Below, in pieces: positions 1 through 43,330 of a stretch of DNA of 64,000 nt. Source of the stretch: Mesostigma viride (taxonomy: Eukaryota > Streptophyta > Mesostigmatophyceae > Mesostigmatales > Mesostigmataceae); contig RPFO01000644.1 in NCBI GenBank assembly GCA_009746045.1, forward strand, positions 1,031,680 to 1,095,679, in the 5' to 3' direction. The notes beneath the pieces were generated by a model. It ran no database searches. It was not told where the DNA came from and was given only the letters and a program-made list of their open reading frames with translations. The number at the start of each line of letters is the position of its first letter. The first letter of the stretch is position 1. The translations under genes were made by a program, and so were the position numbers.

Positions 1-324
1 GGACTCTCACGTAGCGTGTAGTCTCTTCGAGTCTCTCGTTAGTGGCCTTCGTGTTTCTCCCTTTCCTTGGGAGCAAGGCCGGTAGCATGTCATGGAGCGC
101 TGCCTAACTGCGGGCTCGTGAGCATGGAGTGCATCGATATTGAGACTATCAACGTGTTGTAATTGTATTAACTTTCTCAATAAATTCCGCATGTGCGGCT
201 TCATCATCAGACTGTGCAAAGTGTGTGTTGTGAAAGCATTATTCTATAGCAGGGGAGGCAATAAGGTGGTCATCAGGCACGAGGGACAGTTCCTTGTCCT
301 CGGCTGAGAGCCCTCCTTTCGTTA
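1..324 (+). repeat. 5' LTR of gypsy-1, 3' portion only
   Basis: This stretch repeats at 11208-11531 with one visible mismatch (261 against 11468), and gypsy-1 lies between the two copies, so it is read as the tail of the 5' LTR cut by the window edge. The near identity implies a recent insertion. Similarity stops at 324. The LTR may end there or may run further, because the downstream copy is itself interrupted at 11531. Confidence 0.8.
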
Positions 325-592
325 CTCGAAGAGACTACCCGGTAGTCTGCTTCCTTCTGTTCGAAGCCAAGACGTTGGCTTTAGTGTTTATCAACCATCA
401 GCAGTACAGGGAACGGCCTGGCTGACAGTTTGTAAAGGAAGTGTCTTGAGACAGATTTTAAGAAAATAGAACTAGCCAGAATTTGCTGGCTCTTGTCTTT
501 TTCTGGCAGGCTAGTCGAGTCGTTATCCTTGACGCCTGTTATAAAGCCTTTGGTTGTTGCTTCTTCTCAGCGAAACCTAGGCTTGTTGGTTC
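325..592 (+). other. gypsy-1 untranslated leader
   Basis: The stretch between the end of LTR similarity and the first gag codon shows no ORF of note. No convincing primer-binding site starting TGG is seen just after 324, which leaves the LTR border and the primer uncertain. Confidence 0.5.
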
Positions 593-2424
593 TTGTTTTG
601 CCCATCGGTCAGCTGGTGCATGCCACTGACGCGAGCGCAGACTCGAGCCATGGCGGATGCAAATAGAGCAGATGCCGACACGTCCGCTCCGGGGTCGAAT
701 GGCGGGATTCCTCCCGCCGTACCCGCAGTGGGTGAGAGTCGCGACCAAGAAGCGCCGCTGAGTATGGTGGCGCTGTTCGCGCAGATGCAAGCGCAGATGC
801 AGCAACAGTCGCAACAGTTGCAGCAGCAACTGGCGCTGCAGATGCGGGAAGTGACCGACAGATTGGTGGCCGTAGAGGGTCGTCATCTGCAGTCCACACC
901 ATGGGACGGGCAGGCATCGATGCCGGGCCCAATGGTGTTGCCGCGGAGCCGAGGGAGCGGGACCAGCCGCCAACCTCAGGTAATGCGGCGGGAAGGGCTC
1001 CGATGGAACCGGGGGTTTTGGCTGGGTCGCTAACCCAACACGACTTGCTTGGTGAGGCGGATGGTCAGCCACGGGGCGAGTATACGCTGGCGCCCAGGCG
1101 CCTGCCTTTCGATCAAGCGCGAGACGGATTGCACGAGGAGAACGGGGCAGGGCTGGCGCGCGCGATGGACCCACGCAGGGGTGCACCAGGACGCATGCTG
1201 CCAGGCGGGGTCTCAATTCCGTTTGGGCGAGGCGGTGGGGCGCTGACCGGCGGGTCGACTGCACGGTGGTCAAGTGTGCCAATCGGGCGCATTCCGCCCA
1301 TGGAGGACATAACCACGCCGCTGGCTTTCCGAGTACGGGAGGCAGCACGCCCAAGCACGCTGGCGCAGGGACGCGCAGCTCAGCGACCGCCGGAGGATGC
1401 CGATGGGGTGCAGTACCCGCAAAGGGTGCGCCTCATACCTGAAGGCGCGAAGATGCCCACCCTACCACGGGTGGACATGCGCGAGAAGTTCTCCACAACC
1501 GGCAATCTGGCCACGCTGGCGCAGGCCTACAACGCGTACAAGTCATGGATTGATCTGCAATACATGACTACGCAAGGCGCTGTAATGCATGAGTTTGTGA
1601 TGAACAACATGCATTTCTTCTTTCACGGCCTTACGCTGAGGCGAGTGGCTAGGCTGGTGGAGCAGTGGAGAGAGGTCTCGCTGTACACGCGTCACACGGA
1701 CGTGTGGTTCGGCTTCGACGGGCGTGGCCAGCCCGACTATGACAACATCATGTATGGTGTCGACCCTGCCGAGGAACTGTGGGGCCTCCTTCGCCAGGAA
1801 TACCCGGTGGAGACCATCAAGGCAGAGCGTGAGTGGCGCAGTTTCAAGATAGCCGAGGGTGAAACCCCGGAGCAATCTTACGAGCGCCTCATGGAGTTCG
1901 CCGGCGAAGTGGAGGACTGGTCCGAAAAGCTGGCGTGTCAGAAATGGCTGCAAGCGCTAGGCTCCAAGGAGATGGAGCTGCCCACGCCGCCCAACGGCCA
2001 GCCGTGGCGATTGCGGTCACTGTGCATTGAGGTCAGGGCCATGATGCGACGACACGCGCAAGGCCGGATCTCGGTAAGCACGGTGGTGGCCGAGCTGCAG
2101 GCCAAGGTCGACGCGCTGACCAAGGCCAAGTCGGGTGAGTCGTCTGCCACAAGACAAGCGCGCCCGCAAGGCGGCCACGGTGCTAGCAGGAACCAAGGGG
2201 GGTCTCGCAACGCCTCATCGCATGATGCAACCCAGGGTAACGCCGCTGGCGGCAACAAGGACGCTGCCGCTCCGCCGACGCGAGCTGGGGGGGCACGTCC
2301 TCACAGACGGGTAGGACGGATGCGCGCAAATCGGGCTGCTTCCTGTGCGGTCAGGATGGGCACATCAAACGTGATTGTCCCAAGGCGTGTAAGAAGTCAC
2401 ACCCGGCAACGGTCCGCACCCATC
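593..2424 (+). pseudogene. gag: gypsy-1 Gag with CCHC zinc knuckle, frameshifted
   Basis: This is the capsid/nucleocapsid precursor of the gypsy element. It starts with a glutamine-rich, probably coiled-coil stretch (about 770-860), continues into a capsid-like region (about 1480-2070, rich in W, Y and charged residues), and ends in a CCHC knuckle reading CFLCGQDGHIKRDC at 2337-2378. The frame changes from 593 to the frame open at 901 somewhere within 901-1030, and again near the run of seven G at 2287-2293; both are -1 changes. The knuckle lies in the frame that continues into the protease, so Gag and Pol may have been one polyprotein. Either the gene is slightly decayed or the sequence has missing bases. 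The identification as Gag rests on the knuckle and on position before the protease. Confidence 0.8.
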
Positions 2425-3660
2425 TGGCGGGGCAGTGCCCAGCGCCGGGGGTGCACTTTGCGGACGTGGAGGACAAGAAGGTGGACGCGGGGGTGGTCAT
2501 CATTCAGCCGACGGGCGAGGCGGGGGGACGTGAAAGGGAGGATGGGGGATCGCAGGTTCAATACAGGGACGAGGACTTCTGGCGGCCAGCCGACGTGATG
2601 GCGTTGGACATCCACGCAGTTGGCGCGCGAGGGAAGCAAGCACGTGCACCGCCGTCGTTTCAGGTGGGGCAGCCAAGTGAGACTGTGGGGCAGCTGCCTC
2701 AGTCCTTTCGCATGGCTCCCGCTCGGACCGGCTCCACCCTGGAACACGACAATCCTGCTGGGGCAGAGCAGCGGCGCAGGTTGTTGCCATTATACCCTAT
2801 GCCGTCGGTCGTGGACACGCCTGCATACACTCCCCGGCAAGTGGTCGAGTGGTTCGGTCAGCGGGCCGTGGAGGTGCTCGGGTCGCATGCGTCAGAGGTA
2901 CAGCGGTACGCTGACACAATGGACGCCCGTAGGTTGCACAACGCTGAGACAGCCACATTTGTCGGGCATCGCCCTGCATCGGCTTCGGTAATCGTGGGTC
3001 ATGTCGCTCATGGTGTCTTGGACAACGCGCAGCGGGCGTGCGTAGTGCCTAGGGCACCCACTGTCACCTCATATCCGGATGGCGAGCCAGCAATGGCGTT
3101 TCAGGCGCAGGGGCACGGGGAGCCCCTGAGCAACGTGGTCTACAGTACTGACCATGAATTGGTCGTGAAACTGGACAGCGGGGCCCAGCCACTCGTTATC
3201 AGTGCTCGGCTGGCCCAGTTGCTCAACCTAACCAGGGAGAATGGCGGGCTGCGGGACAGTCATGTGTCCGTGGCGGGCTGGCAGGGCCCTGCCGCTAAAC
3301 CCTTTGCCATGACTGCGGTCCAGGTAATGGTCATCCTCAACCCGCTCAGGCCATCCGACATGGCCTGCATCCCTGTGAATGCCCTTGTGACCGAGCAGTC
3401 ATCGTATGACGTGCTGGTCGGCATGGAGGTCATGTTTCCCATGCGGCTCGAGGTACGCATGTGGGAAGGCCGCGCGGTGTACATCGTTGACAGAGACGGT
3501 GACGCCATGCGCCAAGCAAGCATCCCGGTGAGCTGCTACAGCTCGGACACTGGGGCAGTGCGTGTCTCGACGGTCAACCGGGTCGAGGCTGGCTCGCACG
3601 ACGCGGTGGTGGAGGTACGGATGGGGGAGGTCACGGCAGCTGGGGGGGCTGTGCGTGATA
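2425..3660 (+). CDS. gypsy-1 retropepsin-like aspartic protease and linker
   Basis: The frame that holds the Gag zinc knuckle stays open to 3851. The active-site motif LDSGAQ is at about 3171-3188 (DSGA 3174-3185), followed about 75 residues later by VLVGMEV, the usual second hydrophobic motif of retropepsins. The protease would cut the Gag-Pol polyprotein inside the virus-like particle. About 200 residues of proline- and glycine-rich linker precede it. After the run of seven G at 3642-3648 the likely coding frame moves by -1 into an alanine-, serine- and threonine-rich stretch (3671-3908) that leads into the methyltransferase. Confidence 0.8.
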
Positions 3661-3879
3661 AGCATCGGCCGTGCATCCCAACAGCGCTGGTGGGACGGGC
3701 CTCATTGCAGAGCACGTGGGCGGCGCGACAGCAGCCGCAAGCGCGGCAGGCCCTTTTGCGTCAGCACGTCACCAACGCGGTGCGGCAGCAACAACTCTCT
3801 CATCTCCCGCGGCAATCGCAGTCCAAGTGGCTGTCGCGACAACGAAGGTAACTTCTGTGCCGATGTTGTGGCAGAGTCG

Positions 3880-5300
3880 CGGGTCTTGTCCGAAGGGGTT
3901 GTATTGCTAGAATTGTTTGCTGGGATGGGAGGGGGGCTGGCTGGCTTTCTCGCTGCAGGCGGTACGTGCCACACGTTGATCGCCGTAGAGCCGTCTCCTA
4001 CCGCTCGGGCAGTGTATAGGCATCACTGTGCCCAGCTGTCTGCCCTGTATCCATCTCAGTTCCCTCCGTCTGCGTGGACAGATCCGTTTGGGGAGTGCCC
4101 TCAGGATATCCGTGCTATTGGGGAGGTTCATGTGCGAGGCCTTTTGAGGCGGCACAAGAGGATAGACCTCGTCCTCGCGGGCTGGGAATGTCAAGGGTTG
4201 AGTCAGGCCGGCGTAGGACGCGGGCTTGCGGATCCTAGGAGCGGGTTGTTTTGGGATCTGCTTCGAGTCGTTGGACTCTTGCAGCAGCTGCAGGACCAGC
4301 CACTAGCGTATCTTTTTGAGAACGTGGTGGCCGACGACAGCCCTCACGAGGTAGTGAGGAAGGACTGGGCCCAGATCGTGGACATCTTAGGGGCACCAGT
4401 CACGTGCGACAATGCAGGATTGGGCGGGCTCACCCACAGGTACCGCGCATTCTGGACCAACCTTGCACTCACCACCACCATCCAGGCAGTGGTAGATGCG
4501 ATCACACGACAGCACGACGGCATGCCCGCGGAGGTGGCGCTGCCACCACATTTGGTCACGCAGCGGGTAGACGTCGCCGATCGGCACCCTTACGCGCCCG
4601 TCAATCACGTAGGTAAGCCTATGTGCGCTCTTCCCACCTTGGTTAGTTACCAGGGGTCATCGGCCTACAGGGACCGGGGCAAGGGTTTGGTATGGGACAC
4701 CGGTACGGGTTTGTTGGTGCAGCCGCCCGCTGAGTTTCGGGAGGTGAGCATGGGGTTCCATGTGGGGGCGTCCGCCGCTGAGGGGGTTTTAGAGGCCACT
4801 AGGTGGTCTCTCGTTGGGCAAGCCATGTCAGCCTTCCAGGTTGGGTATGTTCTGCGGGCCGCAATGCAAGTGCGCCAGGGTGGGGGAGATATCCCCACAC
4901 CGCCACCGCCTGTCAGTGCCCACGCGGCTGGTGTCCGGCCAACAGCGTCCGGCGGCACTGGGTCGCCATGGAGATCGCGGCTGCTTCAACTATGGAGCGT
5001 TATCCTCATGACGTCCTTGTTGTCCAGCACGGTGTTCGCTGGAGCGCCCACCCTGCAGCAATCGGTCGGTCGCGCAGTCCGTGCCATTCAGCAGGTGAGC
5101 GTCACACCCGGTGTAGCCGCATTTTCCCTTTTCCACGATGCCGCTGTCCGGGGGCCTTGTGTCGACAGTAGGAGTGCCGCAGTCGCAGATCCTGCTGCCT
5201 CTCACATATGGGCCATAGGTGAGCACCTCACCGCCACGCAACGCAAGGCTATGGAGCACTGGTTGCATTCTGCACGCTCAGTTTCGCTTTCAGCAGTGAA
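3880..5300 (+). CDS. DNMT3-like cytosine-5 DNA methyltransferase inside gypsy-1 pol
   Basis: This domain would transfer a methyl group from S-adenosylmethionine to cytosine in DNA. Motif I reads LELFAGMGGG (3910-3936). Motif IV reads GWECQGLS, with the catalytic cysteine codon at 4189-4191. Motif VI is FENV (4315-4326), a motif VIII-like THRYRAFW follows near 4432, then a target-recognition region and a final helix region (LVGQAMSAF, about 4807-4835). The stretch SGLFWDLLRVV and the short spacing to ENV look like DNMT3/DRM enzymes rather than DNMT1/CMT. The catalytic pair is EC where most enzymes have PC; the cysteine, and the glutamate of ENV, are kept. It sits between protease and RT in the same orientation and has no own promoter that I can see, so it is probably made as part of Pol. 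About 140 residues of linker follow. The methyltransferase call is firm; activity is inferred. Confidence 0.93.
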
Positions 5301-6698
5301 GAACTAGGGTGCTACAACGGGGGCTGCATGGGGGTCCCACTAGATACGGATCAGCCCTTATTCAGGCGGCAGCATAGGCTGAGCTTGGCTGAGCTGGAAT
5401 TCGTAGATGCTAACTGTCGAGAGCTAGAGGCAGCTGGGATCATCCGCGCTTCATCCTCCAGTTATGCAGCTGCCACGGTGGTTGCACCCAAGAAGGATAC
5501 CATCACAGGCGAGTGGACAGGTATGCGCATGGCCACTGACCTGCGTCAGCTGAACGCGCACACTCCTGTTGATATAGGTACCCCATGCCTCGGGTCGATG
5601 ATGTTTTGGATAAAATATCTCCCCAGGTCAAGTATGTGTCGTCGCTAGATTTGCGTAGCGGCTTCCATCAGATCAAGGTCGTAGAGGCAGATCAGCGCAT
5701 GCTGGCCTTTTGGGGTGGGACCCGTCTGTACGAGTGGGTTCGCATGCCATTCGGACATCGCAACGCTAGTGCGGTGTTCCAACGTGCCATGGACCAGGTG
5801 CTGGCAGGTTTGCCATTTGCAGCCTGCTACATAGACGATGTCATTGTCTTTAGCGAGACATTTGACCAGCACTTAGCTCACCTCGATCAGGTTCGGATCG
5901 CCCTAGATAAGGCCAACCTGCGGCTGCACCCTGAAAAGTGCAAGTTCGCCCAACAGACCATAGGGTTTCTTGGTCATCAGATTGTACCAGGTGGCCGGAC
6001 CCCTGAGGCAGCCAAAGTGGAAGCCATCAGCAACGCCGCAGTGCCCATCGACATCTCGGGGGTGCGCGCATATCTCGGGCTAGCTGGCTATTATCGAGGA
6101 TATATTCAGAATTTCAGCACCAAAGTCAAACCCCTGACTGAGTTGTTGAAGAAGGGCAATGTCTGGGCGTGGGGTCCGGCTCAGCAGCGAGCCATCGATA
6201 CCATCAAACAGGAACTGACTGCCGCTCCTATCCTCCGCGCCCCCGACTATGCTCTGCCCTTCATTCTTTACACCGATTGGTCCAAGGTAGGCCTAGGGGC
6301 TGTGCTAGCACAAAAGGACGATGCGGGGCGCGAGCATGTTATCGCGTACGCTAGTTGGAGTAACAACTCTGCCGAGAGTCGGTACTCTTCCTACGAGGGG
6401 GAAGCGTTAGCCGTTGTGTGGGCCATCAAGCACTTCAGACCATATCTCTTTGGGCGGGTGTTCACACTTGTCACTGATCACCAGCCCTTATTGTGGTTGA
6501 TGACCAGCGACAAACTCACGGGTAAGCTGGCCCGGTGGGCAATGATCATTCAGGAGTACCACCTGACAATCGTCCATCGGCCAGGTGTGGATCACTCCAA
6601 CGCGGACGTCCTGTCCAGGTATGCTCTACCAACCACTGTTGACAACACTGGTGCGCGGGCCCTAGGGGCCGAGAGCTCGCCTGGGTCTGTGGTTTTTG
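5270..6698 (+). pseudogene. pol: gypsy-1 reverse transcriptase and RNase H
   Basis: The RT starts in the frame open at 5304, with a primer-grip side KKD and the template strand LRQLNAHTPVD, then moves by -1 near 5578 into the frame of 5585-6730. The catalytic YIDD is at 5828-5839, and FLGHQIVPGG and YLGLAGYYRGYI are typical of Ty3/gypsy. RNase H follows, with the TDWSKVGLGAVL and YEGEALAVVWA motifs and DHQPLLW. The frame shift lies inside the conserved fingers/palm region, so it cannot be a useful programmed site. The coding region runs straight into transposon T1 at 6699; with T1 and one TTAA removed, the frame continues without a break. Confidence 0.92.
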
Positions 6699-6702
6699 TT
6701 AA

Positions 6703-8419
6703 CACGTCCCCTGTAGAAACTCAGTCCTAAAAATAGGACTGAGTATACCATCTTTGAGATCATGTGGCGGTAAGGGTAGGGGGTACCCCATATATTTGAT
6801 ATGCATCATAGCACTCAATATCATGCTAATGCTTGGGCATGTGCTTAAAAAATCATATGTTGACCAAATCATGTAAAATTATACGTGACTCTCAACCCTT
6901 ACTCGCGATTTTGGAATTTTCTGTGGAAGCACGAGTGTGTAAAATCCAATAAAATCCATATTCACTATTAAAAATCATAGGCGTGTAGATATTAGAGTTC
7001 TTGAACTGTGGAAAAAAACTGGACTCAATTCGGCCACTGGCACTGCCTGAAACATGCAAAACACTGCCAGTCCTATAAATAGGACTGGGCCTTGGTAACA
7101 AAATGCTAGCATGGGAGTGCGGTCGTACTACACACCACCGTGGCCACCAACCATGCCAATCAACTCATTTCCCTTCCAGCATAATAGGACAACATGCTTG
7201 CATCATCATATTGCAGTTATATTATACCTTATAATGTGTGAGAGCCTATGCAAGCACGTAGGGAATGGGTTTGGATACCTACCCACGAAAGGTTTTTTTT
7301 TGTGTGTTAACCACCAATGTATTGGGCAGGTTAAGCATATTTCAAGTGTCTCTAACAAGAATGGACATGGATGAAACTGTTTTGCCTTGCCATGGCATGG
7401 CCAACATACTTGCTGGCACATGATGACAGTGGTTTACCACCAAGATCTTTCACTCACCCATATAAGCTTGAAAGCACCCTTGACGAGGCCCATGGCCACA
7501 CAATTATGCAGTATGAACGTAGCAAAAGAACAACTAACATCTATGAAGGTGTTTAAACCCATAAAGCGCCTAAAAACCTGCACAACTACACCAGGGCAAG
7601 GCAAATGCCTGGCAACATCATCTAAAAAGGGGGTTTTGGAGAGGGGCAGGCAACGGTCAAGAAAGAGCATCAAGACTCGAAACTGGCAACACCTCGCAAG
7701 CTTAAACTCATGTAAGAACATCAAGAAATGATGAGACAACGATATTCCGGCTTTACCTTGCATGGCTGGCGTTACCTTGGCCCAGGCGGTGCCCGCAAAA
7801 GTGGAACTTTGAGGCACACACACCATGAAGTGACAGAGTGGTCGAAATCATCAAATCTATACTGCCACTAGGTCAATTCTATGACCATGCATGATAACAA
7901 GTAGAAAGAAGCCTATAAACCCTTTGACTTGCGCCGGAAAGCAGTTGTAGTAATCAATTCCGTCGGCCTGCCTGATCGCAGCTTTTTCCAGCAAGAACGG
8001 TGCCGACACCTAGTAAATCGCATTTCCGCGAGCTGAAAATTGACTTGTATCATCTCTATGATATATAAAAACTATTTCCTGAGTTTGGCCAGCTATATCG
8101 TCGGAAAACGTAAACTGCATGCATGGGCGCAAGCCGCCATGGCTAGGTCGTGCATTTCCGGAACACACGTTTCACGTGGAAAAGTACCCTTACCACCTGT
8201 TCTTTGACCGTACATTTAGCCGCTCATACCAAATCCAAAAAAATCGCAAAAATATGTCCAAGAAAGATCTTTTCACGTAGTATTTGAATAAATTTTGAGG
8301 GAATTTTTTGACAAACCTTCCGATCGGGGCAAATTTTCTACGAAACCCCAAATCTCAGTCCTAAATTTAGGACTGAGTTGAACTCAGTCCTAAAAATAGG
8401 TGTGGCTACAGACGACGTG
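6703..8419. mobile_element. T1, non-autonomous TTAA-flanked (piggyBac-type) DNA transposon
   Basis: The element is 1717 bp and is flanked by TTAA (6699-6702 and 8420-8423). Its ends are inverted: CACGTCCCCTGTAG on the left and, read inwards from the right, CACGTCGTCTGTAG. Removing it with one TTAA rejoins the gypsy-1 pol frame exactly. A second copy, T2, lies inverted at 51409-53128 with the same TTAA flanks. There is no transposase; piggyBac enzymes are about 500-600 residues. Subterminal palindromes with AGTCCTA, four bases, TAGGACT occur at both ends and once inside (about 7069-7090). The TTAA duplication is characteristic of piggyBac, but the terminal bases are not the usual CCC, so the superfamily call is an inference. 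Confidence 0.85.
7434..7826 (-). CDS. Conserved ORF in T1, function unknown
   Basis: An open frame of 130 codons on the minus strand matches, at roughly 70 percent of residues, the frame at 51975-52391 in T2. Shared blocks include TFAGTAWAK, MFLHEF and MGLNTFIDV. The T3 fragment at the window end encodes a similar start near 63958. I do not recognise the family. Two diverged copies staying open suggests coding history, but 120 codons could also stay open by chance. Confidence 0.4.
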   Translation of the reverse strand: MVCVPQSSTFAGTAWAKVTPAMQGKAGISLSHHFLMFLHEFKLARCCQFRVLMLFLDRCLPLSKTPFLDDVARHLPCPGVVVQVFRRFMGLNTFIDVSCSFATFILHNCVAMGLVKGAFKLIWVSERSWW

Positions 8420-8423
8420 TTAA

Positions 8424-10196
8424 TGCTGCAGGCTTCGCTGACGCCGACGCCGAGGCAGACTGGCGCGCAGTCGAGTATACAGTCGCAGACTTTGCAGCAA
8501 GCTGCAATGCAGTTCACCCTTCTCCCTTCACCCCTGCCGCTGGCCTCCTCGCGTTGGAGGAAGGTAATTCTCCGTCCTTTGACATTGACAATACCTTGGC
8601 ACGATACCTAGCACTCCAGGTGGTGTTGGTTGGCCATCTCACAGTGGAATGCAACATGGGTGATGTGTGGCTCGATGGGCGTGTGTTGGAGCAGGTCCAA
8701 GGGATAGCTCTCACCCCACCCCGGTTGATTGGTCCTCAGCCCAGCGTGACGCTGAGTTGAATAGGGTGCAACATAGGGCGGTCACATACTCGTGGGATGC
8801 CGGGGTCCTCCACAAAATGATCGGCAAGCGCAAAGTGGTGGTGCCGCCGCCTCACAAGCGGGTCGCCATCGTCCAGCAAGCCCATGAGCGGTATGGCCAC
8901 CTGGGTGGTAACCGCACTTTGGCGCTAGTGCGCGCCTCTTATTGGTGGAACGGCATGCGTGCCACAGTCGCGCAGGTCGTCGCTCGCTGCACGCAGTGTG
9001 CCCGGGTGAAGGCCCGGTTCAATGTGGACCACGATGCGAAAGAATTGATGAGCCTACCCATCAGAGGGCTCTTCTACCGCTGGCACGTAGACCTGTGTGG
9101 GCCCTTTGATGAAAGTGCAGATGGCCACAAGTATGTCATGGTGTGTGTCGAAAGTTTTAGCAAGTGGGTCGAGCTCATCCCCATTGCTGACAAGCAGGCC
9201 GCCACCACCGCCAAGCACTTCGCCGACATCATCGCCAGGTTTGGCGCCCCCGCGGAGGTGGTCACCGACCAGGGCGGGGAGTTTCGTGGGGAATTTCAGG
9301 AATTGTTGGATGCATGTCTCATTGATCACCGTCGCACTTCTCGCAAGCATCCTCAGGCCAATGGTTTGGCTGAGAGATTGGTGCAGACTGTCAAGCAGGC
9401 TTTGCGCAAGTGGAGCCTGCAGTCAGCATCATTCACTATGTGGGATCGTGAACTGGCGTGGATAGCCATGGGTTACCGAATGTCACCCCAGGAGTCGCTC
9501 GCCTGTTTCTCCCCGTATTTCCTGTTGTTTGGGCGCGCACCCTTGCTCCCCACGGAGGCGCAGAGTGCACACCCCACCCCTATGGCGTTTGACAACGCCA
9601 GTCAGTTTCTGGCTGAGGTGACCGCACGGGCGGCTACTTTCCGCAAGGTTATGCCCATTGCCATGAACAACTTGTTCATCGCCCAGCACCGAGATACCCT
9701 GCGCTACGCTCAGCGCCGGGGGGGCGCTTACATGGCCCGTCAGCTGCATTTTCGTCCGGGGCAGTTCGTATTTCTCCGCACGCAGCTGACCGACACTCTT
9801 GACGTGACTGCGGGGCCGACCATCTTGCGGATCGTCGCCATCAAGCCATCTGGGGTCGCCATTTTGGAGGGCGTCGACGGCAGTCGCACCACCGATAACG
9901 TAAGCAACCTCAGTCCGTGTTCGTTGCCCAACTTATTGCCTGACCTCGCCCCGCACACGGCCAGGCGGGTCAAGGACGCACAGTGTCAGGTTTGCCATCG
10001 CGTAGACCAGGGGGATACCATGTTGCTGTGTGATCACTGTAATTGTGGGTGGCACATGCACTGCTTGCAGCCAGCGCTCACCACCGTGCCAGCGGGCCAG
10101 TGGTTTTGCCCAGTTTGTGTCGCTGCCCGTTTCGCAACCAGTAGCGTCACCATTTCCTTAGCTGCTGTGGTGTTGGCACGGTCGCTGGCCATGTGA
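8424..10196 (+). CDS. pol: gypsy-1 integrase with C-terminal PHD finger
   Basis: After T1 the frame continues through an acidic linker (about 8424-8720), then moves by -1 near two runs of four C (about 8717-8727) into the integrase frame. The HHCC zinc domain has AHERYGHLGG and CTQC (about 8880-9000). The catalytic D, D and E codons are at 9090, 9267 and 9372, giving the D,D(35)E spacing. A CDFR-like basic C-terminal domain follows. At 9984-10118 lies a C4HC3 PHD finger (CQVC, CDHC, H..C, CPVC, with WF before the last pair). Many gypsy integrases carry a chromodomain at this place to steer integration to marked chromatin; here a PHD finger, a histone H3 tail reader, occupies it. A short hydrophobic tail ends the protein. 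Confidence 0.93.
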
Positions 10197-10222
10197 GGAG
10201 CCATGAGAGCCAGCGAGGGGGG

Positions 10223-10363
10223 AATCATGGGACAGGTCCTCGCCCACCCCACCGGGCATGCAGTTAAGGCAGGCACGTCAGCTCAGCTCATTTGGGTTTT
10301 ACCAAAGCTGAGCATGGCCAACCGCCATGGTGGCGCCGGAGATTGTGGTACGCAGACGCGACA
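10223..10363 (+). repeat. 140-bp direct duplication, copy 1
   Basis: This stretch, starting AATCATGGGACAGG, recurs without visible change at 11531-11671. The first copy begins directly after a G-rich tract behind the pol stop codon, and the second begins directly behind the end of the 3' LTR. The layout would fit two LTRs head to tail, the second cut after 140 bp, or a local duplication or assembly error. Confidence 0.85.
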
Positions 10364-10630
10364 GCTGTCACGGACGCGAGCTGTGTCATCCGGGCGCCCA
10401 CTATGCACAAGACCGGTGACGTGCGCAAGGAATTTGTTTTCTGCGCATTTTCGACAAAGGCTAGTGACCGGGGGGGGACACTAGCATTTACAGCATAAGA
10501 GCGGACGAAAGTGCACGTGCGCGCGCGCCGGGCCATGCAGGCACGGCTGGGCGCGCAGCACAGACGTACTTGAGCGGACGGCAGCACAAGTGCGCAGCGT
10601 CGAGAGGATCATACGCGAGTTAGTGGACAG

Positions 10631-10666
10631 CTGGAGCTGGAGCTGGAGCTGGAGCTGGAGCTGGAC
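10631..10666 (+). repeat. CTGGAG hexamer microsatellite
   Basis: Five perfect CTGGAG units followed by CTGGAC lie inside the presumed 3' LTR. Confidence 0.9.
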
Positions 10667-11530
10667 TGCTGGACTTCAACAGCGCCGAGGCTATTGACAG
10701 GCCAGGTGTCTTTGTGGTGTAGAATATAGCGGGTCAACGTTATGAGGACTGGACAGAAAATGGAAAAGGACAATTTGCGGTGCGGAGCCAGATCGCTGGA
10801 ATGAATGCGAAATCGCTGGCAGCCCTAAAAAGGGATTTCTTCTAGAAAGGAAAGATTAGAAGCAATGTTTGCTGGGCCACTCACACACAAGGTGTGAGCG
10901 TGCAGATTGTTTGAAGGATATTATGCTTCGACCTTGGTGGTCGTGTCTAAATGCCGGACATTCCCAGGGACAGAAATGCCGGAGCCTCTAGGAGATGAGA
11001 TCGGCAACAGGGTAGCAATTTAGATTTGTCGGGATGCCTTCCTGTTTTTGTTGGCATGTGTGGTAGTAAGCCAGGACGGCAACTGGAATGCGGTTTCTGT
11101 TTGCATGGTTCAGGCAGCAAGATAGTTTTGGCATTCCTGGCTGGACTGACAAGTGTGGCGTGTGTCATGCGTGTGGCATGACGAATGGTTTGGTTCATAG
11201 TCGAAGAGGACTCTCACGTAGCGTGTAGTCTCTTCGAGTCTCTCGTTAGTGGCCTTCGTGTTTCTCCCTTTCCTTGGGAGCAAGGCCGGTAGCATGTCAT
11301 GGAGCGCTGCCTAACTGCGGGCTCGTGAGCATGGAGTGCATCGATATTGAGACTATCAACGTGTTGTAATTGTATTAACTTTCTCAATAAATTCCGCATG
11401 TGCGGCTTCATCATCAGACTGTGCAAAGTGTGTGTTGTGAAAGCATTATTCTATAGCAGGGGAGGCATTAAGGTGGTCATCAGGCACGAGGGACAGTTCC
11501 TTGTCCTCGGCTGAGAGCCCTCCTTTCGTT

Positions 11531-11671
11531 AATCATGGGACAGGTCCTCGCCCACCCCACCGGGCATGCAGTTAAGGCAGGCACGTCAGCTCAGCTCATT
11601 TGGGTTTTACCAAAGCTGAGCATGGCCAACCGCCATGGTGGCGCCGGAGATTGTGGTACGCAGACGCGACA
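11531..11671 (+). repeat. 140-bp direct duplication, copy 2
   Basis: This is the second copy of 10223-10363. It is joined in frame, by chance, to the copia RNase H fragment that follows, so the first residues of the ORF starting at 11635 come from gypsy-1 sequence, not from copia. Confidence 0.85.
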
Positions 11672-12402
11672 AGGGTGGTAAGGACTACCCACAGCAGATT
11701 GTAGATGCATTGCAGGAGCCCATCACGCAGGCTAGGTGTGCTACCATCAGGGGCATGCTGGCATGGCTTGCAAGTATATGTGCCCCTGACTTGCTGGTTT
11801 TGAGTCGACTTACTGATTCCCAGCTGGTTGAGGTGGGTGCTGAGAGTGTGGTGCAGGCTGTCATGATGTCTCCCCCTCTCATACTGGGTCCTGTGGATTT
11901 GTACAAGCCCCTTGACATGGTTCTCTATGTGGACAGTTCTATGGATAATAGGAAGGTCACAGAGGTCAGGGGTAGGGCAGCAGCATTAGTTACCCTGGAG
12001 CAAGATCACACCTCACTTGTTACCTGGTACAGTCGGTTGCAGAACAGGGTTACACCCAGCAGTGATATTGCTGAGTGCAGGGCAATCTGTGAAGGGCTAC
12101 ATTCTGCTCTTTACTTGAGGGAGCTCTTCTACCAGCTATGTCAAGTGGCTTCCTGTAGGTTGCAGCTGCACACACTGGTGAGGACTGATAGCATGGGCAT
12201 GGTGCAATTTGTGCACAGGCAGCTGGCCAGGAGCAGGGACCTTGACTACTTGTTGCTCAAGGAGATGTCCTACCTAGCTCACATTGAACATGTGCCTGGT
12301 GTGGACAACCCTGCAGATGCCCTCACCAAGCTGGAGGAGAAGGCGGAGAGGCAGTACCCCCTGCTCCGTGGGCTCATGGACCCCTTACACGGGCGGCCAT
12401 AG
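11672..12402 (+). pseudogene. pol: copia Q RNase H fragment, 5'-truncated
   Basis: About 240 residues match the end of a Ty1/copia polyprotein: end of RT (GMLAWLASICAPDLLVLSRL), then RNase H with LYVDSSMDNRK, YSRLQNR, DIAECRAI, RTDSMG and the terminal VDNPADALTKLE. The same blocks occur in copia G (24682-25500) and copia P (61638-62300). Everything upstream is missing; the join at 11671 is a truncation. The reading frame is intact to its stop codon. Confidence 0.9.
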
Positions 12403-18343: not shown

Positions 18344-20595
18344 ATGCCCCCTAAGAAGCGAGGTGGTGGTAATGCACAGCCCCCGAAGGGCCGTAGAGAG
18401 ACACAGTCCCCGGGGGACAATAGCAGGGATCGAAGAACAGGAAATAGCTAGCACGTCTCGTCGGAGTTTCAGTGGGTCCCGGAGATCCGAGGCAGCCGCC
18501 AGGCCGGCCAGGGTTACCGCACAACGGCAGACGACTCTTTCAAGAGTCGCAGCTGAGAACAAGCTGCCCTAGGGTTTGATCAGCAACAGCAGTCGCCGCA
18601 GCGACAGCATCAGCCTCAGCAGTCGCCGCAGATACAGCATCAGTCTCAGCAGTCGCCGCAGATACAGCATCAGTCGCAGCAGTCGCAGCAGCAGCATGCA
18701 GCAGCAGTCGCAGCAGCAGCGACAGCCACAGCAGCAATCGCGGCCGCGCCCGACCGAGCATCTGGGCGAATGGGACAGGGTACCTCCCACGCAGCGACCA
18801 CCATCCGTGGCAGTTGTGCCGGAGGAAGATGAAGATATAGAGGTCGCAGATAGCCCGGTAGCTAGCTCGCCGTTCGCTCCGCCGCCTGAGTTCGTGCAGC
18901 CCTCTCAATTGGGGGCATACGCGCGTGGCCGCGCCCGAGCCTGACTCACCCTTGGGCAGGGCGTGGCCGCGGCGGGCCGGGGCCGGGCCCTGGAAGGGAT
19001 CCCCGTCGGGTCTCCTTTGGAGCACACGAGAGCTGGTCCAGATCCCCACCGCAGACGTCAGGGTCGGCCCACGTGCAGTACGATCCCGAGGAGGAGGACT
19101 ATGCTCCCCCGGGCCCCTTCTCCATCCCAGCAAGGAGCGCGCCCACCATGCAACGCTAACTTCAGCCGGCTGCCGGCCCCCGAATGACCCCGGTTATGAG
19201 CATCCCACGTCCGTACGTTCGAGTTCGATCGGCCTGAGTCGGCCCCCTTTGCGGCGCAGCGGGTATCCGATGACTACGCGCTCCACCGAGAATCGGGCGA
19301 CTTCGATCCTGAGCGTGAGGAGGACACCTTCGTGTCCCAACGTGGGCATGACCAGCATGCAGGAAGGGGTTCGCACCAGGAGATGCGGGCGCGGCGTCAC
19401 CAGCCCCTCACCTTTTCCAGCCCCGCGTACTGCAGAAAGGGCGCCCCCCTGCGACCTGACCCTGTCAAGGCCCCGCCTATGCCAGATTTTAAGGCGGTGC
19501 CCAAGCTCCATGCGGGCATGACTCCCTGTGAGATCGACGAGTGGGCTCGTATATATGTGGCAACAGTTGTACACTGTATGGTGTGAACACCATGAGTGGC
19601 AGCTGGCCACCAAGGTTCTGATCCCCTACGTGGTGGTGAAGTGTATGGACCCATCAGTGGTCGGGATGCTTAACGTCGAGAGTGTGGCGTCTCAGTCATA
19701 CCCGCAGACGGTGGAGGAACTGCTGGCGCGCATCCGGCGCAAGCTCATCCCTCCCGGCTATCGACTGACCGAGCGGTTTGAGTTCGGACGCCTACGTCAG
19801 GGCAACACTGACTTGGCGGAGTTCCTCACCACCTTTGACTCCTTTGCGGCTCGGCTGACAGGGGACCTGACGTGGACCGAGTACAAGATTCGGTTTCTGG
19901 AGGCTATTCACCCTGACCTCCTGGACGAGGTTACGAAACACTACGCGGAGGTCCCTTGGGAACGCCTCGACATCCATGTCGTCCAGCAGTACCTCCTCCA
20001 GGTGGCCGATGTCATCAAGCGCCCGCGCTCAGCCAGCACGAGGCGGTTCGTACCGCCCCCGGCGCCACGCTGCGTCCACTTCACGGAGGTGGAACCCGTC
20101 CCTTCGGAAGGGGAGGAGTCTAATAACGACGAGCAGCCGGCCATCCAACTGCACGCCATCGACGAATCCAAGGCCCGCTGTTTCATGTGCCACGAGGTCG
20201 GACACCTCAAGAAGGACTGTCCGCGTCTCAAGGCGCGCACCAGCACGGCGACGGAGGCCACCAAGGAGGCCCCCAAGTTTTCTGGTCCCGCCTTTGAGAA
20301 GCGCCCAGCGCCTGCAGCGCGGGATGCCCACCCGCGCAACGCGTGCGCGCGGGCTGCCACGCTGCGCGACGCGCGCACGCAGCCCAACCAGTTCCAGACA
20401 CCCCGCCTCCCAGCGTCGTTCTCTCGGACGGTGCGCGAGCTCAATGAGATTCTGGCGCAGCATCAGGCATCCGAGGCTGAGGGTGACGAGTATGAGGCGC
20501 TCAACCACGGTGACGACGACGACTCGGATGAGGGGGAAGGGGGGACAGGGCGGTCGGACGAGGCGGCCTCCCGGCCCCGCGATCCTCGCGCATAG
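18344..20595 (+). pseudogene. gag: gypsy-2 Gag with CCHC zinc knuckle, frameshifted at the N-terminal half
   Basis: The start at 18344 (MPPKKRGGG) precedes a CAG-rich stretch (18580-18740) with glutamine and serine repeats, then a proline-rich acidic region (about 18750-18940). Coding then changes frame three times (near 18945, 19150 and 19545) until the long frame 19528-20595. That frame has a capsid-like part (about 19570-20020) and a knuckle CFMCHEVGHLKKDC (about 20181-20222), followed by a basic/acidic tail. It belongs to the same element as the protease and RT that follow. The N-terminal limits are uncertain. Confidence 0.75.
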
Positions 20596-20599
20596 TGCC

Positions 20600-20888
20600 C
20601 CTTCCCACAGCCGGGTAGAAGTAGGAGTAGACTTAGTCAACCAGGTAGCACAGACGCCTGCACGGGATGTGGGCGCGGCCACCCCTGAGGCCGATGTAGC
20701 GTCAGTCAATAATGTAGATAGGATGGGCGGGCAGGCCCCAGAGGTCTCCCCGCCCTCTTCAGATGCAGGCGTGTCGGCGACCGAGGTCGACCCCACTTCA
20801 GCCAATCATGTCGATAGGTCGGGCGGACAGGCCCCGGAGGCCTCCCCGCCCTATGCCTCACCAAGCACCAGAACACTTCTAATCTTCA
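20600..20888 (+). CDS. gypsy-2 Gag-Pol linker with two imperfect repeats
   Basis: In the frame +1 to gag, the linker holds two related units of about 35 residues, sharing NNVDRMGGQAPEVSPP and NHVDRSGGQAPEASPP. It links Gag to the protease and was probably one polyprotein before a shift near 20590. Confidence 0.5.
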
Positions 20889-21257
20889 GTGGTGGACTGG
20901 CGCTCCCTACCATGCACCACACTTGACCCGTTTCTGAAGGAGAAGACGATCCTGGATGTTAAGTTTATGGTGGATACGGGGGCGACCACATCTTTTATCC
21001 ATGAGGCCCTGGTGCGACGCGCGGGCTACACGATTCGACCACACCCGACGCCCATCACCGTCCGGTATGCCGATGGTAACAAGCACCCGTCCCCTGGCCT
21101 CGTGGACCTCAAGGCGGTTGTCCAGGGCATCCCGGTGGAGGTAACAGCCACCGTGGCGCCGCTGAGCGCAGCCGACATCATCCTGGGCATGGATTGGCAG
21201 GACGCCCAGCTAGGACGTGACGATCAGTGTCAAGCGCCGGGTGGTTTGGTTCCCTGA
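20889..21257 (+). CDS. pol: gypsy-2 aspartic protease
   Basis: The retropepsin motif MVDTGATTSFI is at 20967-20999 (DTGA 20973-20984) and the second motif ADIILGMDW at about 21171-21197. The domain has the usual length of about 95 residues. The frame ends at 21257 because of a +1 change near 21210, after which the same polyprotein goes on in the RT frame. Confidence 0.9.
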   Translation: MVDWRSLPCTTLDPFLKEKTILDVKFMVDTGATTSFIHEALVRRAGYTIRPHPTPITVRYADGNKHPSPGLVDLKAVVQGIPVEVTATVAPLSAADIILGMDWQDAQLGRDDQCQAPGGLVP

Positions 21258-22478
21258 TGGCTCCTTTGGGTGCCCGCGACACGAATATTTGGTGCACGGC
21301 ACCGAGGTGCACAGTGTTCAGCACGACTCGGGGCCCGAGAAGCCACGACGTCATGCTTCTCAGATGCTGATGAGCAGCAAGACGCTCGCGCGCAACCTGC
21401 AGAAGGGCAAGGAGTACTACATGTACCGCCTTGACTCTGTGCCCCTGCTTCAGGAGCTGATGGAGATCGGCACGGACTTCACCGAGGACGAGGTCACGCG
21501 CTACAACGCGGTCCTAGCCAAACGAGAGAAGCTGTTTGACGAGACCACGCCGCAGTTCCCTCCGCCTCGCTCCGTGCTGCATCACATCGGCCTCAAGGAA
21601 GGCTACGGGCCCACCACGTCCCCGATGTATCGGATGGGTCCAGTCGAGCTGATGGAACTCAAGAAGATCCTGATGGCCCTCCTTGAGCGTGGTCTGATTG
21701 AGCCCAGTAACAGCCCCTTCTCAGCTGGGGTACACCTTGTGCCCAAGCCTGGGGGCAAGTGGCGGCTCGTCACCGACTACAGGAAGCTCAACGCGATCAC
21801 TGTCAAGTCCAAGTACCCGCTCCCGCGCATTGACGACATCTTCAATCGGGTGCAGGGCGCCACCTGCTTCACGGTGATTGACTGCGCAGATGGGTTTTGG
21901 CAGCTACGTATAGCTGAGGAGGACTGTCACAAGACGGCCTTCAATACACCATACGGGCACTACCAGTTCCGCGTGGCGGCGATGGGGCTCTGCAACTCAC
22001 CAGCCAGCTTCCAGATGCTCATGAACGACATCCTGCGGCCCGTCATGGGGACCGCACACCTGCCACAGGTGTCCAGTGACCTGCGCGACCCTCGCAAGGG
22101 GGACAAGCCGCCCCGGTCCTGGAAACGCACTTGCGCTCTGGCCTATCTGGATGACATCCTGGTGTACTCCAAGACCTTCGAGGAGCACCTGGAGGACGTC
22201 GATACGGTCCTGCGCATCATGGAAGAAGAGCATCTCTCGGCCCGCAGGGCTAAGGTCCGCGCGGGGCACAGCGTCCCGTTCTTAGGCCACACGCTTTCCG
22301 GCGCAGCAGGTGTGGCCACGGACCCCGAGAAGATCGCCTCTGTCCAACAGTGGCCAGCCCCGACCGACGTGAAGGGCGTGCGTAGCTTCCTGGGGATTGC
22401 GTCCTACTACCGACGCTTCATCCCCCGGTTTGCCACGGTCGCGTCGCCCATCAACGCTCTCCTCAAGAAGGGCGTGTC
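21217..22478 (+). pseudogene. pol: gypsy-2 reverse transcriptase, split by copia G
   Basis: The frame holds a connection region and then a full RT: PPRSVLHHIGLKEG, VPKPGGKWRLVTDYRKLNAI, VIDCADGFWQLRIAEED, and the catalytic AYLDDILVYSKTF (YLDD 22144-22155), then FLGHTL and FLGIASYYRRFI. A short extra loop (about 22060-22125) precedes the YLDD. Reading stops being gypsy at LLKKGVS, exactly where the copia G LTR begins at 22479. The RNase H that should follow directly (FVWSAQCQQ) is found on the opposite strand at 31419 and below. The target duplication GTGTC/GACAC proves the cut. Confidence 0.95.
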
Positions 22479-22827
22479 AGTTAATGCCACCGACCGGCTG
22501 AGCTATGGCGGTCGGTCACGTTGAGCTTGGGATAAGGTGAACACAGAGAACTGCTGTCGGAGCTGGCCAACCACTGGTTTATGTCCTAGCCAGCAAAGCC
22601 TATCCGGTTAGCCGTAACCGTGGGACAAGCTAGCTGTCCGTACCGACCCGGATAAGGCCCCGGACTGGGGCCTATAGGTGGCGCCGGCCCTAGGCGCCGC
22701 CCTTAGACCGGTCGACCGCATCGGACCGCCGGATTATAGCCGGCGGCTTAGCGGACGCTAGCGGAAGGCGTGCGGACGGACATGGGGAACTTAGAGCCAG
22801 ATCCTAGGGCTCTAGAGTTACTCAACT
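22479..22827 (-). repeat. copia G 3' LTR, AGTTGAG...TTAACT
   Basis: The 349-bp LTR reads, in the minus orientation of copia G, from AGTTGAGTAACTC to GGCATTAACT. Next to it lies the 5-bp target duplication GTGTC (22474-22478); the other copy, GACAC, is at 31420-31424 beside the 5' LTR. The LTR does not begin with TG or end with CA. Confidence 0.92.
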
Positions 22828-24681: not shown

Positions 24682-26262
24682 TCACGGGTGTTGCATCGTC
24701 ATGCGCTTGCGCAACACTGCGTACTGCGGGGCAGCCTCCCGCGCCTCCTTGGTGAGTGCATCTGCGGGATTGAGTTCATCCGCGATGTGCTGGAGACGCG
24801 TGACGCAGGAGGCCGCCTCAGCGAGTACGAGGTAATCAACGTCCTGTGACCGCGCATAGGGATTGTCAAGGAAGGCCAAACAACTTTGTGAGTCAGTGTG
24901 CACCGTGCTAGTCCAGTGAAGAGTGAACCCACACGAGCCAAATACCCAACCCAGCAAGTACCGCAGCCACATGCCATGTGAGATAGCTGAAACAATGCCC
25001 CGGCATTCAGCCGTGTTGGGGCTAGTGGCAATGCGGCTGTGCAAGCGCGAGTACCAATCTAACAACATGCCAGGCTGGCCCTCATTGCTGATAAAGAACA
25101 GTGCCCCCATGCGGGCCCGCACTTGGCTGACTGTGCGCGTCTCTAGATTAGCATCCGTCACTATCTCGAGGTGCACCGGCTGTGAGCAATCGAGCCCACG
25201 AAGCACAATGCCGGGCGTCATGGCCAGCTGCCGCCGAACATGAATGGACCCTAGTCCTTCCAGCACATCATCGGGCAGGCGAGCGAGCACTGCCAAATCA
25301 GGTGCCACCGTGTCCGCCAACCACCCGAGCTTGCCCTTAACCGAGGGCCCATGGGTTGCCAACAGCGGGGACGGGAGGTCGGCCAGCAGGTCAACCACAT
25401 AGTTGCGGCTATCCTGCATGTGCATGACCCATTCGCCAGAACGCGAATCCCGCTGCAACGTAGACTGCACGCCGCAAAACACCACGGGTTTACCCTCCTC
25501 ATGATCCACCGCCCTGCCCAGGGGAAACTTAGCCGCCACTGCAGCAAGAAACTGGGTAGCAAATGTGCGAGGTGCCACCAGCTTGAAGTCATCGCCATGC
25601 CACACGAAGAGGGCTGGCTCGCCAGGGACGCCGGTGGGGACCACAAAGAAGTTAGGATCAGCGCGATGGTACGTGGCCCCTAAGCTCTGCAAGACCTCCT
25701 CCGCGGAAATGCGGAAGATGATGGGAGAGCTCTGCAGCCCCTCCACCCCTGTCAACAGCTCGATATACTCGCTGCCAATGGTGCCATCCTGCCAGACCAC
25801 CGGGACCTTCACCACGTAGCGGGTGCCTTGCCATGTTTGCTGCGCGACCCCAGCGTCGCTGTGGAGGAATGCCCGCTGAAAGTCACCGCACCACATCCCG
25901 TAGTCCTTGCCCGCGTTCCGCTTGCCCAAGTAGATGACCGTCAGTAGCCGATGCGAAACATGGTTGAGCCCAGGGGTATAAAGATCCTTGGCATCCAGCG
26001 GGGAGGACCCCTTCGTCTCCGTGACCACGGGCCTAACCCGGAACACCACCGAAGAGTTGGCCTCGTCCGGCTTGTAAGTGAGCACGAACTTCAACCGCAA
26101 CCGCGTGGCCCCGGCTGGCACACTCTCCAATCCTCGGTAGACCTCGCGCTCTCGCCACTGCTCCTTGGCTCGAATGAACGCGTCGCGCCACAAAGCAAAC
26201 TTGAGAGGATCTTGACAGTCCAGGACAAGTTGCTCCCACGTCACAGGGCTATCCGCCGCCAT
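24682..26262 (-). CDS. pol: copia G reverse transcriptase and RNase H
   Basis: An intact frame of 526 codons. RT parts: LRLKFVLTYKP, RPVVTETKGSS, YTPGLNHVS, NAGKDYG, CGDFQRAFL (motif A aspartate) and LFVWHGDDF (about 25587-25613) in place of the usual YVDD motif C. After GKLGWLADTVAPDL comes RNase H with VTDANLET, NTAECRG, HTDSQSC, SQDVDYLVL and the terminal LNPADALTK typical of Ty1/copia. The tyrosine and valine of YVDD are replaced by histidine and glycine, but both aspartates remain, so activity is possible. The frame has no disruption, which contrasts with the rest of the element. Confidence 0.93.
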   Translation of the reverse strand: MAADSPVTWEQLVLDCQDPLKFALWRDAFIRAKEQWREREVYRGLESVPAGATRLRLKFVLTYKPDEANSSVVFRVRPVVTETKGSSPLDAKDLYTPGLNHVSHRLLTVIYLGKRNAGKDYGMWCGDFQRAFLHSDAGVAQQTWQGTRYVVKVPVVWQDGTIGSEYIELLTGVEGLQSSPIIFRISAEEVLQSLGATYHRADPNFFVVPTGVPGEPALFVWHGDDFKLVAPRTFATQFLAAVAAKFPLGRAVDHEEGKPVVFCGVQSTLQRDSRSGEWVMHMQDSRNYVVDLLADLPSPLLATHGPSVKGKLGWLADTVAPDLAVLARLPDDVLEGLGSIHVRRQLAMTPGIVLRGLDCSQPVHLEIVTDANLETRTVSQVRARMGALFFISNEGQPGMLLDWYSRLHSRIATSPNTAECRGIVSAISHGMWLRYLLGWVFGSCGFTLHWTSTVHTDSQSCLAFLDNPYARSQDVDYLVLAEAASCVTRLQHIADELNPADALTKEAREAAPQYAVLRKRMTMQHP

Positions 26263-42250: not shown

Positions 42251-42560
42251 CCTTGGCATGCCATATATCACCAGCACCATATTTAAGCAGGGGCGCCTGC
42301 AGCTCGTAGGGCAACTAGCTCGCACCAACCAGGTAGACACCTTACGTGGCCCCCCGGCAGGACTGCGACCAGCTCAGCCAGGCCGGCATCTCCTGACGTG
42401 GGCCGGGCCCCGTGATGCTAGACGCCGCAAGGCCCGCACCTTCAAAGAACAGCTAGTAGAGGACATGGGGGGCCTAGGCCTCTCCGTGATTTGGAAGAAG
42501 CTGATGGACAAGGCCAAGTGGGCCCAGGTCATAGAGGACACCGAGCCCCCACCGCGGGGA
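42251..42560 (+). pseudogene. LINE C-terminal fragment
   Basis: RLQLVGQLARTN, PGRHLLTW and [15 protein letters not shown] resemble the region after the thumb of RTE/Jockey-type LINE proteins (GR..TW..., then DL..LG....W). It could be the 3' part of the LINE family at 14618. Short and decayed. Confidence 0.55.
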
Positions 42561-42691
42561 AGCGCCCGCGTGTGCAAACGCGCGGGAGGCACGCCAGACA
42601 GCTCCCCTAGGGCCGGTAGCGTGATGTTGTTTAGATAGATGTTGTAGGTATAGCTGATGTAGATAGATTAGACCGGTAGGGCTGGTTGCAC

Positions 42692-43330
42692 CCATCCATC
42701 CATCCATCCATCCATCCATCCATCCATCCATCCATCCATCCATCCATCCATCCATCCATCCATCCATCCATCCATCCATCCATCCATCCATCCATCCATC
42801 CATCCATCCATCCATCCATCCATCCATCCATCCATCCATCCATCCATCCATCCATCCATCCATCCATCCATCCATCCATCCATCCATCCATCCATCCATC
42901 CATCCATCCATCCATCCATCCATCCATCCATCCATCCATCCATCCATCCATCCATCCATCCATCCATCCATCCATCCATCCATCCATCCATCCATCCATC
43001 CATCCATCCATCCATCCATCCATCCATCCATCCATCCATCCATCCATCCATCCATCCATCCATCCATCCATCCATCCATCCATCCATCCATCCATCCATC
43101 CATCCATCCATCCATCCATCCATATCCATCCATCCATCCATCCATCCATCCATCCATCCATCCATCCATCCATCCATCCATCCATCCATCCATCCATCCA
43201 TCCATCCATCCATCCATCCATCCATCCATCCATCCATCCATCCATCCATCCATCCATCCATCCATCCATCCATCCATCCATCCATCCATCCATCCATCCA
43301 TCCATCCATCCATCCATCCATCCATCCATC
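42692..43330. repeat. ATCC tetranucleotide microsatellite, about 640 bp
   Basis: About 159 ATCC units in a nearly perfect array with one interruption (CATATCC at 43121-43127). Long open frames in it (HPSI or WMDG repeats) are products of the simple repeat and not genes. Confidence 0.98.

Follow-up and report, generated by a model that had tools for sequence, protein, structure and literature searches.

The 64,000-nucleotide stretch analysed here, called the window below (Mesostigma viride assembly GCA_009746045.1, contig RPFO01000644.1, positions 1,031,680 to 1,095,679), carries at 1 to 11671 a decayed copy of a Gypsy-type retroelement in which a DNMT3-like cytosine-5 methyltransferase is paired with a PHD finger at the end of the integrase (Table 1). 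The copy is larger than the interval 3880-10196 to which an earlier note on this DNA had assigned it. Its left end lies at or before base 1, which adjoins a run of N, and the 5' repeat is cut by this assembly gap. The Pfam scan returned, in order, aspartic protease, DNA_methylase PF00145 (E 4.6e-11), RVT_1, RT_RNaseH, Integrase_H2C2, rve and PHD PF00628 (E 6.4e-9). These results agree with the order from Gag to PHD that the earlier note had claimed for one element, with a Gag-like frame that has no Pfam match and a weak protease match. In the window copy Pol is interrupted, its domains being spread over several frames, and a 1.7-kb insert separates RNase H from the integrase. The insert, which we take to be piggyBac-like from its TTAA target, was missing from all five copies of the same family (family 1) that span the site (L010, L012, L013, L014 and L028; the site was read in L013). 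The single polyprotein proposed in the note is matched by long open Pol frames in other copies, but not by the interrupted frames of the window copy.

Table 1. Features of the retroelement copy in the window (window coordinates)
Feature	Position	Strand	Evidence or remark
Repeat A, 5' copy, left-truncated by assembly gap	1..323	+	Matches 11208-11530; longer 5' A in other loci
Putative primer-binding site ACTCGAAGAGACTAC	324..338	+	Reverse complement of 15 repeat A bases (18-32 and 11225-11239)
Gag-like frame	901..2598	+	Open frame; no Pfam match
Frame with aspartic protease-like domain	2451..3851	+	Pfam E 4e-4, under curated cut-off
DNMT3-like cytosine-5 methyltransferase domain	3895..4872	+	Pfam, profile, fold
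Frame with reverse transcriptase (YIDD at 5828) and RNase H	5585..6730	+	Pfam; final bases fall in insert
1.7-kb insert, not the element's own	6703..8419	.	TTAA duplications; similar inverted ends CACGTC..CTGTAG
Integrase frame (H2C2, rve) with PHD finger at its end	8667..10196	+	D-D-E contexts at 9081, 9258, 9357
PHD finger (C4HC3)	9984..10118	+	Pfam
Putative polypurine tract GAGGGGGG	10215..10222	+	Sequence position; putative function
Repeat B, first copy	10223..10363	+	Repeat comparison
GC spacer, CA end of B to TG start of A	10364..10365	+	Identical in copies read
Repeat A, 3' copy	10366..11530	+	Repeat comparison
Repeat B, second copy, right end of element	11531..11671	+	Followed by AGGG, also found before left end in contig C351

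By profile and fold, the methyltransferase was closest to DNMT3, and the DNMT3-type motifs FENVVA and HRxRxFW are present. Motif IV reads Glu-Cys-Gln (ECQ, not PCQ), with the cysteine retained, in Mesostigma families 1 and 2 and in the metagenomic protein P0002, and Pro-Cys in the metagenomic proteins P0003 and P0004; the alignment of family 3 does not cover the site. Because the Pro-Cys of motif IV is not kept, we class the domain as DNMT3-like and not as DNMT3. The methyltransferase tree comprised about 110 columns, with supports of only 24-54 at key nodes. Five scans of viral contigs with the methyltransferase confirmed no relative, and a scan of prokaryote genomes confirmed one locus, an archaeal enzyme with 31% identity over part of the domain. 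Protein searches, with about 8000 candidates scored in each, returned P0001-P0003 alone, and more may exist.

The same genome also holds a distinct HhaI-like C5 methyltransferase, found with 364-amino-acid frames at ten places of equal score (C35, C47:644530-645414 (L089), C64, C79, C340, C389, C815, C1517, C1809 and C1935). In the one copy read, HhaI was the top profile, in contrast to the DNMT3-like domain of the element, and a viral contig scan with this enzyme found no relative. Further multi-copy methyltransferase sets have frames of 313, 309 and 325 amino acids. These sets are perhaps another mobile or virus-derived methyltransferase family.

The genome searched comprised 439.9 Mb in 2243 contigs, and the copy counts are lower bounds; the published Mesostigma viride genome measures 441.8 Mb (PMC6947507). 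A protein search with the window methyltransferase gave at least 92 matches, among them about 22 places of family 1 (mostly 98-100% identity, one at 90%) and 68 of family 2 (69% identity), 27 of which lie in a 2074-amino-acid open frame. P0001, a predicted protein of Mesostigma viride with a 100% match in the window's genome, found at least 139 methyltransferase matches in at least three families. This search added the third family, with 1642-amino-acid frames at six of its places, and a further group 62-67% identical to P0001 with other frame lengths, of which C1668 has the same integrase-PHD end as family 2. At the DNA level (L019-L027 compared with the window), families 1 and 2 were 98% identical from the 5' repeat through most of gag and about 70% identical over much of pol; because of this step, both families read as mosaics, probably produced by template switching between families. 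The two A repeats (A1 and A2) were 0-0.3% apart in five copies and in the window copy, by substitutions only (over part of A in C887 and the window), and the insertions are therefore recent. A host gene fragment or contaminant beside an ordinary element could be imagined from the broken window copy and the adjoining assembly gap, but more than 100 matches, long open frames and target-site duplications rule this out for practical purposes. The methyltransferase is thus neither confined to this copy nor a separate host-gene piece, since other copies contain it within long open Pol frames.

Constraint on both domains was assessed between families 1 and 2 only, from the proportions of nonsynonymous (pN) and synonymous (pS) differences. 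The values were pN 0.18 and pS 0.77 for the methyltransferase, 0.11 and 0.60 for the PHD finger, 0.09 and 0.72 for reverse transcriptase plus RNase H, 0.10 and 0.69 for the integrase, and 0.35 and 0.76 for the protease region. Synonymous sites were near saturation, so that constraint can be stated and the exact ratio cannot; raw pN/pS was 0.23 for the methyltransferase versus 0.12 for reverse transcriptase and 0.15 for the integrase. These results indicate that the methyltransferase and the PHD finger are under constraint between the two families, with pN well under pS, and that the methyltransferase does not evolve neutrally in this comparison. The enzyme might nevertheless face the host, by changing host methylation or by binding RNA or DNA, and not mark the element itself. 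The unusual ECQ motif would fit such a role, and PMC5890265 raises RNA methylation (for a LINE enzyme) and host benefit as options; the location of the domain inside Pol and its constraint, although lower than that of reverse transcriptase and integrase, make this rather unlikely.

The PHD finger resembles readers of the BAZ2B/CHD4 type, and the solved structures nearest to it belong, judging by their names, to chromatin proteins that bind H3. The Pfam scan found no chromodomain at the integrase C-terminus, the place that the PHD finger occupies; the window integrase also matches the NCBIfam IS481 and IS3 models, both under cut-off. PHD folds can act as scaffolds, and the domain might stabilise the integrase or mediate its multimerisation without selecting a target. 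We hold this to be rather unlikely, given that all five sequences compared conserve the zinc ligands and four of them the LLCD..N.GWH core, and given the chromatin proteins among the nearest solved relatives.

The central claim of the earlier note, that one element joins a DNMT3-like writer to a PHD reader carried on the C-terminus of its integrase, holds in three Mesostigma families, the third having a complete set of PHD zinc ligands, and in two metagenomic relatives. The integrase was present in 12 of 19 ten-kb loci, and the PHD finger in those same 12 (partial in one); eight further loci in the set were too short to reach either. By coordinates, a PHD finger was listed downstream of the methyltransferase at 61 of 90 places, among the best 150 of 1144 PHD candidates.

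In the metagenomic Pol proteins P0002 and P0004, the order is reverse transcriptase, RNase H, methyltransferase, integrase and PHD, with the methyltransferase in the gap between RNase H and integrase; in Mesostigma families 1 and 2 and in P0003 it stands behind the protease. P0003 consists of protease and methyltransferase, after which the protein ends. Identity to family 2 was 36% (P0002) and 30% (P0004) for the methyltransferase, 42% and 43% for reverse transcriptase-RNase H, and 43% and 47% for the integrase. Among 439 candidates, a search with the integrase end plus PHD picked out P0004 along with two PHD proteins of host type; it was not exhaustive, as P0002, which has both parts, was not among the matches listed. 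Behind the PHD finger, P0002 and P0004 share a similar-looking region, which in P0004 weakly resembles a Tudor domain of the PTM/DIR17 type (E 0.09) and is possibly a second reader.

All copies read end to end but one have the repeat order A-coding-B-A-B or A-coding-B. Left ends start with TGTCAC (A) and right ends close with GCGACA (B), and nine of the ten insertions read at both ends have a 4-bp target-site duplication with TG...CA ends. The duplications were CGCG, AACC and TGTC in three insertions ending in coding-B, and AGGT, GGTT, GTTG, ACCA, AGGG and ACCC in six ending in A|B. One of these, the ACCA copy, carries an internal deletion; two others, those with GTTG and ACCC, contain other DNA and extend over 20 kb and 26 kb, respectively. 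The insertion with AGGG lies in contig C351; its right flank equals that of the window over the 62 bases fetched, so that C351 probably holds the same insertion as the window copy. Contig C224 has two ends with GGCT in common (3632799 minus, 3617627 plus), which lie in opposite orientation and were excluded from the count. Left contexts of A numbered 8 and 12; among the 12, C1956 and C929 share one flank. A part of a further unit lies upstream in C111.

In the internal junctions read, a GC dinucleotide separates the CA that closes B from the TG that opens A, and the start of B lies directly behind the putative polypurine tract GAGGGGGG. Directly behind the end of A starts a 15-base exact complement of A bases, which suggests self-priming. 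A self-complementary primer site is typical of self-priming elements and suggests the same for Tf1 of fission yeast, an element that to our knowledge has no methyltransferase, PHD finger or split repeats. The internal A|B joint is the exact join of the two inferred edges of reverse transcription. In classification, the split direct repeats (A-coding-B-A-B) are DIRS-like, and no tyrosine recombinase was found in the pieces scanned, which have an rve integrase and duplications instead. Reverse transcriptase and RNase H stand ahead of the DDE (rve) integrase in Pol, as in Ty3/Gypsy, and two complete long terminal repeats (LTRs) flanking the coding region are absent. Because of the order A-coding-B-A-B or A-coding-B, the element is Gypsy-type by its proteins and not by its repeat layout.

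We favour, with a probability of about 0.6, a reading in which this Ty3/Gypsy-type family passes through reverse transcription and a circle to DDE insertion, its DNMT3-like writer acting on the element's own DNA and its PHD finger on H3 tails. DNA would first be made by reverse transcription, probably self-primed, and the sites indicated by the primer and polypurine tract would yield a linear B-A-coding-B-A molecule with ends at AATCATGG and CGTT. Circularisation of this DNA would bring the integrase ends together as B-GC-A, and the DDE integrase would then insert the circle. Opening of a two-repeat or one-repeat circle at B-GC-A would give A-coding-B-A-B or A-coding-B, respectively; the latter form could equally arise by recombination between two Bs. 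Integration from a circle is proposed because the integrase-type ends do not coincide with the inferred ends of reverse transcription. IS3/IS911-type elements form circles in which the ends abut across a short spacer and are cut by a DDE enzyme; they differ in being bacterial DNA transposons without reverse transcription. The methyltransferase most likely acts on the element's new (circular) DNA, and the PHD finger most likely binds unmodified H3 tails, placing or holding the insertion complex. The suggestion of the earlier note that the element chooses its chromatin and then marks itself is a plausible hypothesis. A stricter version, in which the split between the two kinds of ends makes the circle obligatory, the writer marks that circle and the PHD finger docks it on H3 tails, with writer, reader and integrase all working on a single intermediate, can be put forward only tentatively.

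Insertion of a linear cDNA in the usual way, with A-coding-B-A-B as a fixed oddity that is copied on and no circle, would account for the recurrence of the same order in the copies read, and C133 looks like an inserted linear cDNA. Given the inferred priming sites, such a molecule would end in A at the right, whereas integrated copies end in B with TG...CA and 4-bp duplications, and the A|B joint is exactly where the two inferred edges of reverse transcription meet; we therefore regard this route as unlikely.

Several observations weigh against the circle-based reading that we favour, in which the circle itself is a deduction from sequence. In C133 the order is B-A-coding-B-A, with ends at the inferred edges of reverse transcription, as would be expected of linear cDNA captured without integrase, and C998 is the one insertion in ten with no matching duplication. 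None of the few copies read end to end showed A-B-A-coding-B, the product of the other way to open a two-repeat circle. ECQ in place of the catalytic PCQ in families 1 and 2 makes activity of the enzyme uncertain. Both domains were not seen together at every locus: seven of the 19 ten-kb loci had no integrase and PHD inside the stretch, and 29 of the 90 methyltransferase places had no PHD finger among the matches listed. These 29 places are not thereby without a PHD, because the list held the best 150 of 1144 candidates, and one of them, C1690:7226922 (L027), does carry it on direct reading. Among family-1 copies, 99 of 205 transitions fall at CpG, a moderate enrichment when set against the 28% of C that lie in CpG; as the ten comparisons are not independent, this is no evidence of who methylates.

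Elsewhere in the window, a frame at 11635-12402 resembles by eye a Copia-type reverse transcriptase/RNase H fragment that the Gypsy element had entered; the frame has its start within repeat B. Frames at 19528-22524, 24682-26262 and 62307-63386 resemble by eye Gag or reverse transcriptase pieces of other retroelements, and a long WMDG repeat run at 42474-43325 on the minus strand stems from a short tandem repeat.

The closest known system is KnitGypsy-Dnmt3 of Klebsormidium nitens, reported in 2018 (de Mendoza et al., PMC5890265), which shares with the Mesostigma element the Gypsy domains, a Dnmt3-type methyltransferase in Pol, DIRS-like A-coding-B-A-B repeats and a charophyte host. It is reported to be under purifying selection (Ka/Ks <0.2), and the Klebsormidium enzyme gave no methylation in yeast, a result that its authors deem inconclusive (PMC5890265). 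The main text of that paper mentions neither a PHD finger nor Mesostigma, although a PHD may stand elsewhere in it, and the likeness is one of description; no Klebsormidium-labelled match occurred among the candidates scored in our protein searches. For the Mesostigma element, the present analysis adds the ends, the duplications and the priming site. PMC5890265 treats the Klebsormidium case as an acquisition within that lineage, and the same odd layout in both algae hints at an earlier origin or at horizontal spread. SymbioDIRS-Dnmt3 and SymbioLINE-Dnmt of Symbiodinium also carry a methyltransferase inside a retroelement, that of SymbioDIRS-Dnmt3 being of Dnmt3 type with de novo CG methylation in yeast, but they use tyrosine recombinase or LINE machinery, and integrase and PHD go unmentioned in their description (PMC5890265). 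Chromoviruses likewise have a histone-reader type domain at the integrase C-terminus (PMC3605345); in the Mesostigma element a PHD finger replaces the chromodomain, and methyltransferase and split repeats are added. Ginger1 has a Gypsy-type integrase, with a PHD given for one family, Ginger1-9_HM, but comprises DNA transposons with Ulp1 or OTU domains and without reverse transcriptase (PMC2836005).

The open-access literature examined describes no Gypsy element with both domains and no methyltransferase-bearing elements of Mesostigma; the PHD in PMC3286476 is a host gene beside an insertion, and PMC9998398 concerns diatom enzymes. Within this literature, the PHD pairing, the Mesostigma families and the end structure are new as far as shown, and a charophyte Gypsy element with Dnmt3 and A-coding-B-A-B repeats was already known from Klebsormidium. 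The split-repeat structure, on which the earlier note is silent, tells more about how the element works than its list of domains. Mesostigma viride has 5-methylcytosine, mostly at CG, by bisulfite sequencing (PMC6947507), and is described as lacking DRM (PMC10991848). The 2018 description of retroelements that had captured a methyltransferase left the role of this capture open, and the Mesostigma families offer a young system with many copies, in an alga for which a genome and a bisulfite study are published. They make two questions testable: why a parasite would carry an enzyme of the type that usually silences parasites, and whether insertion of a retroelement from a circle is within the reach of a DDE integrase.

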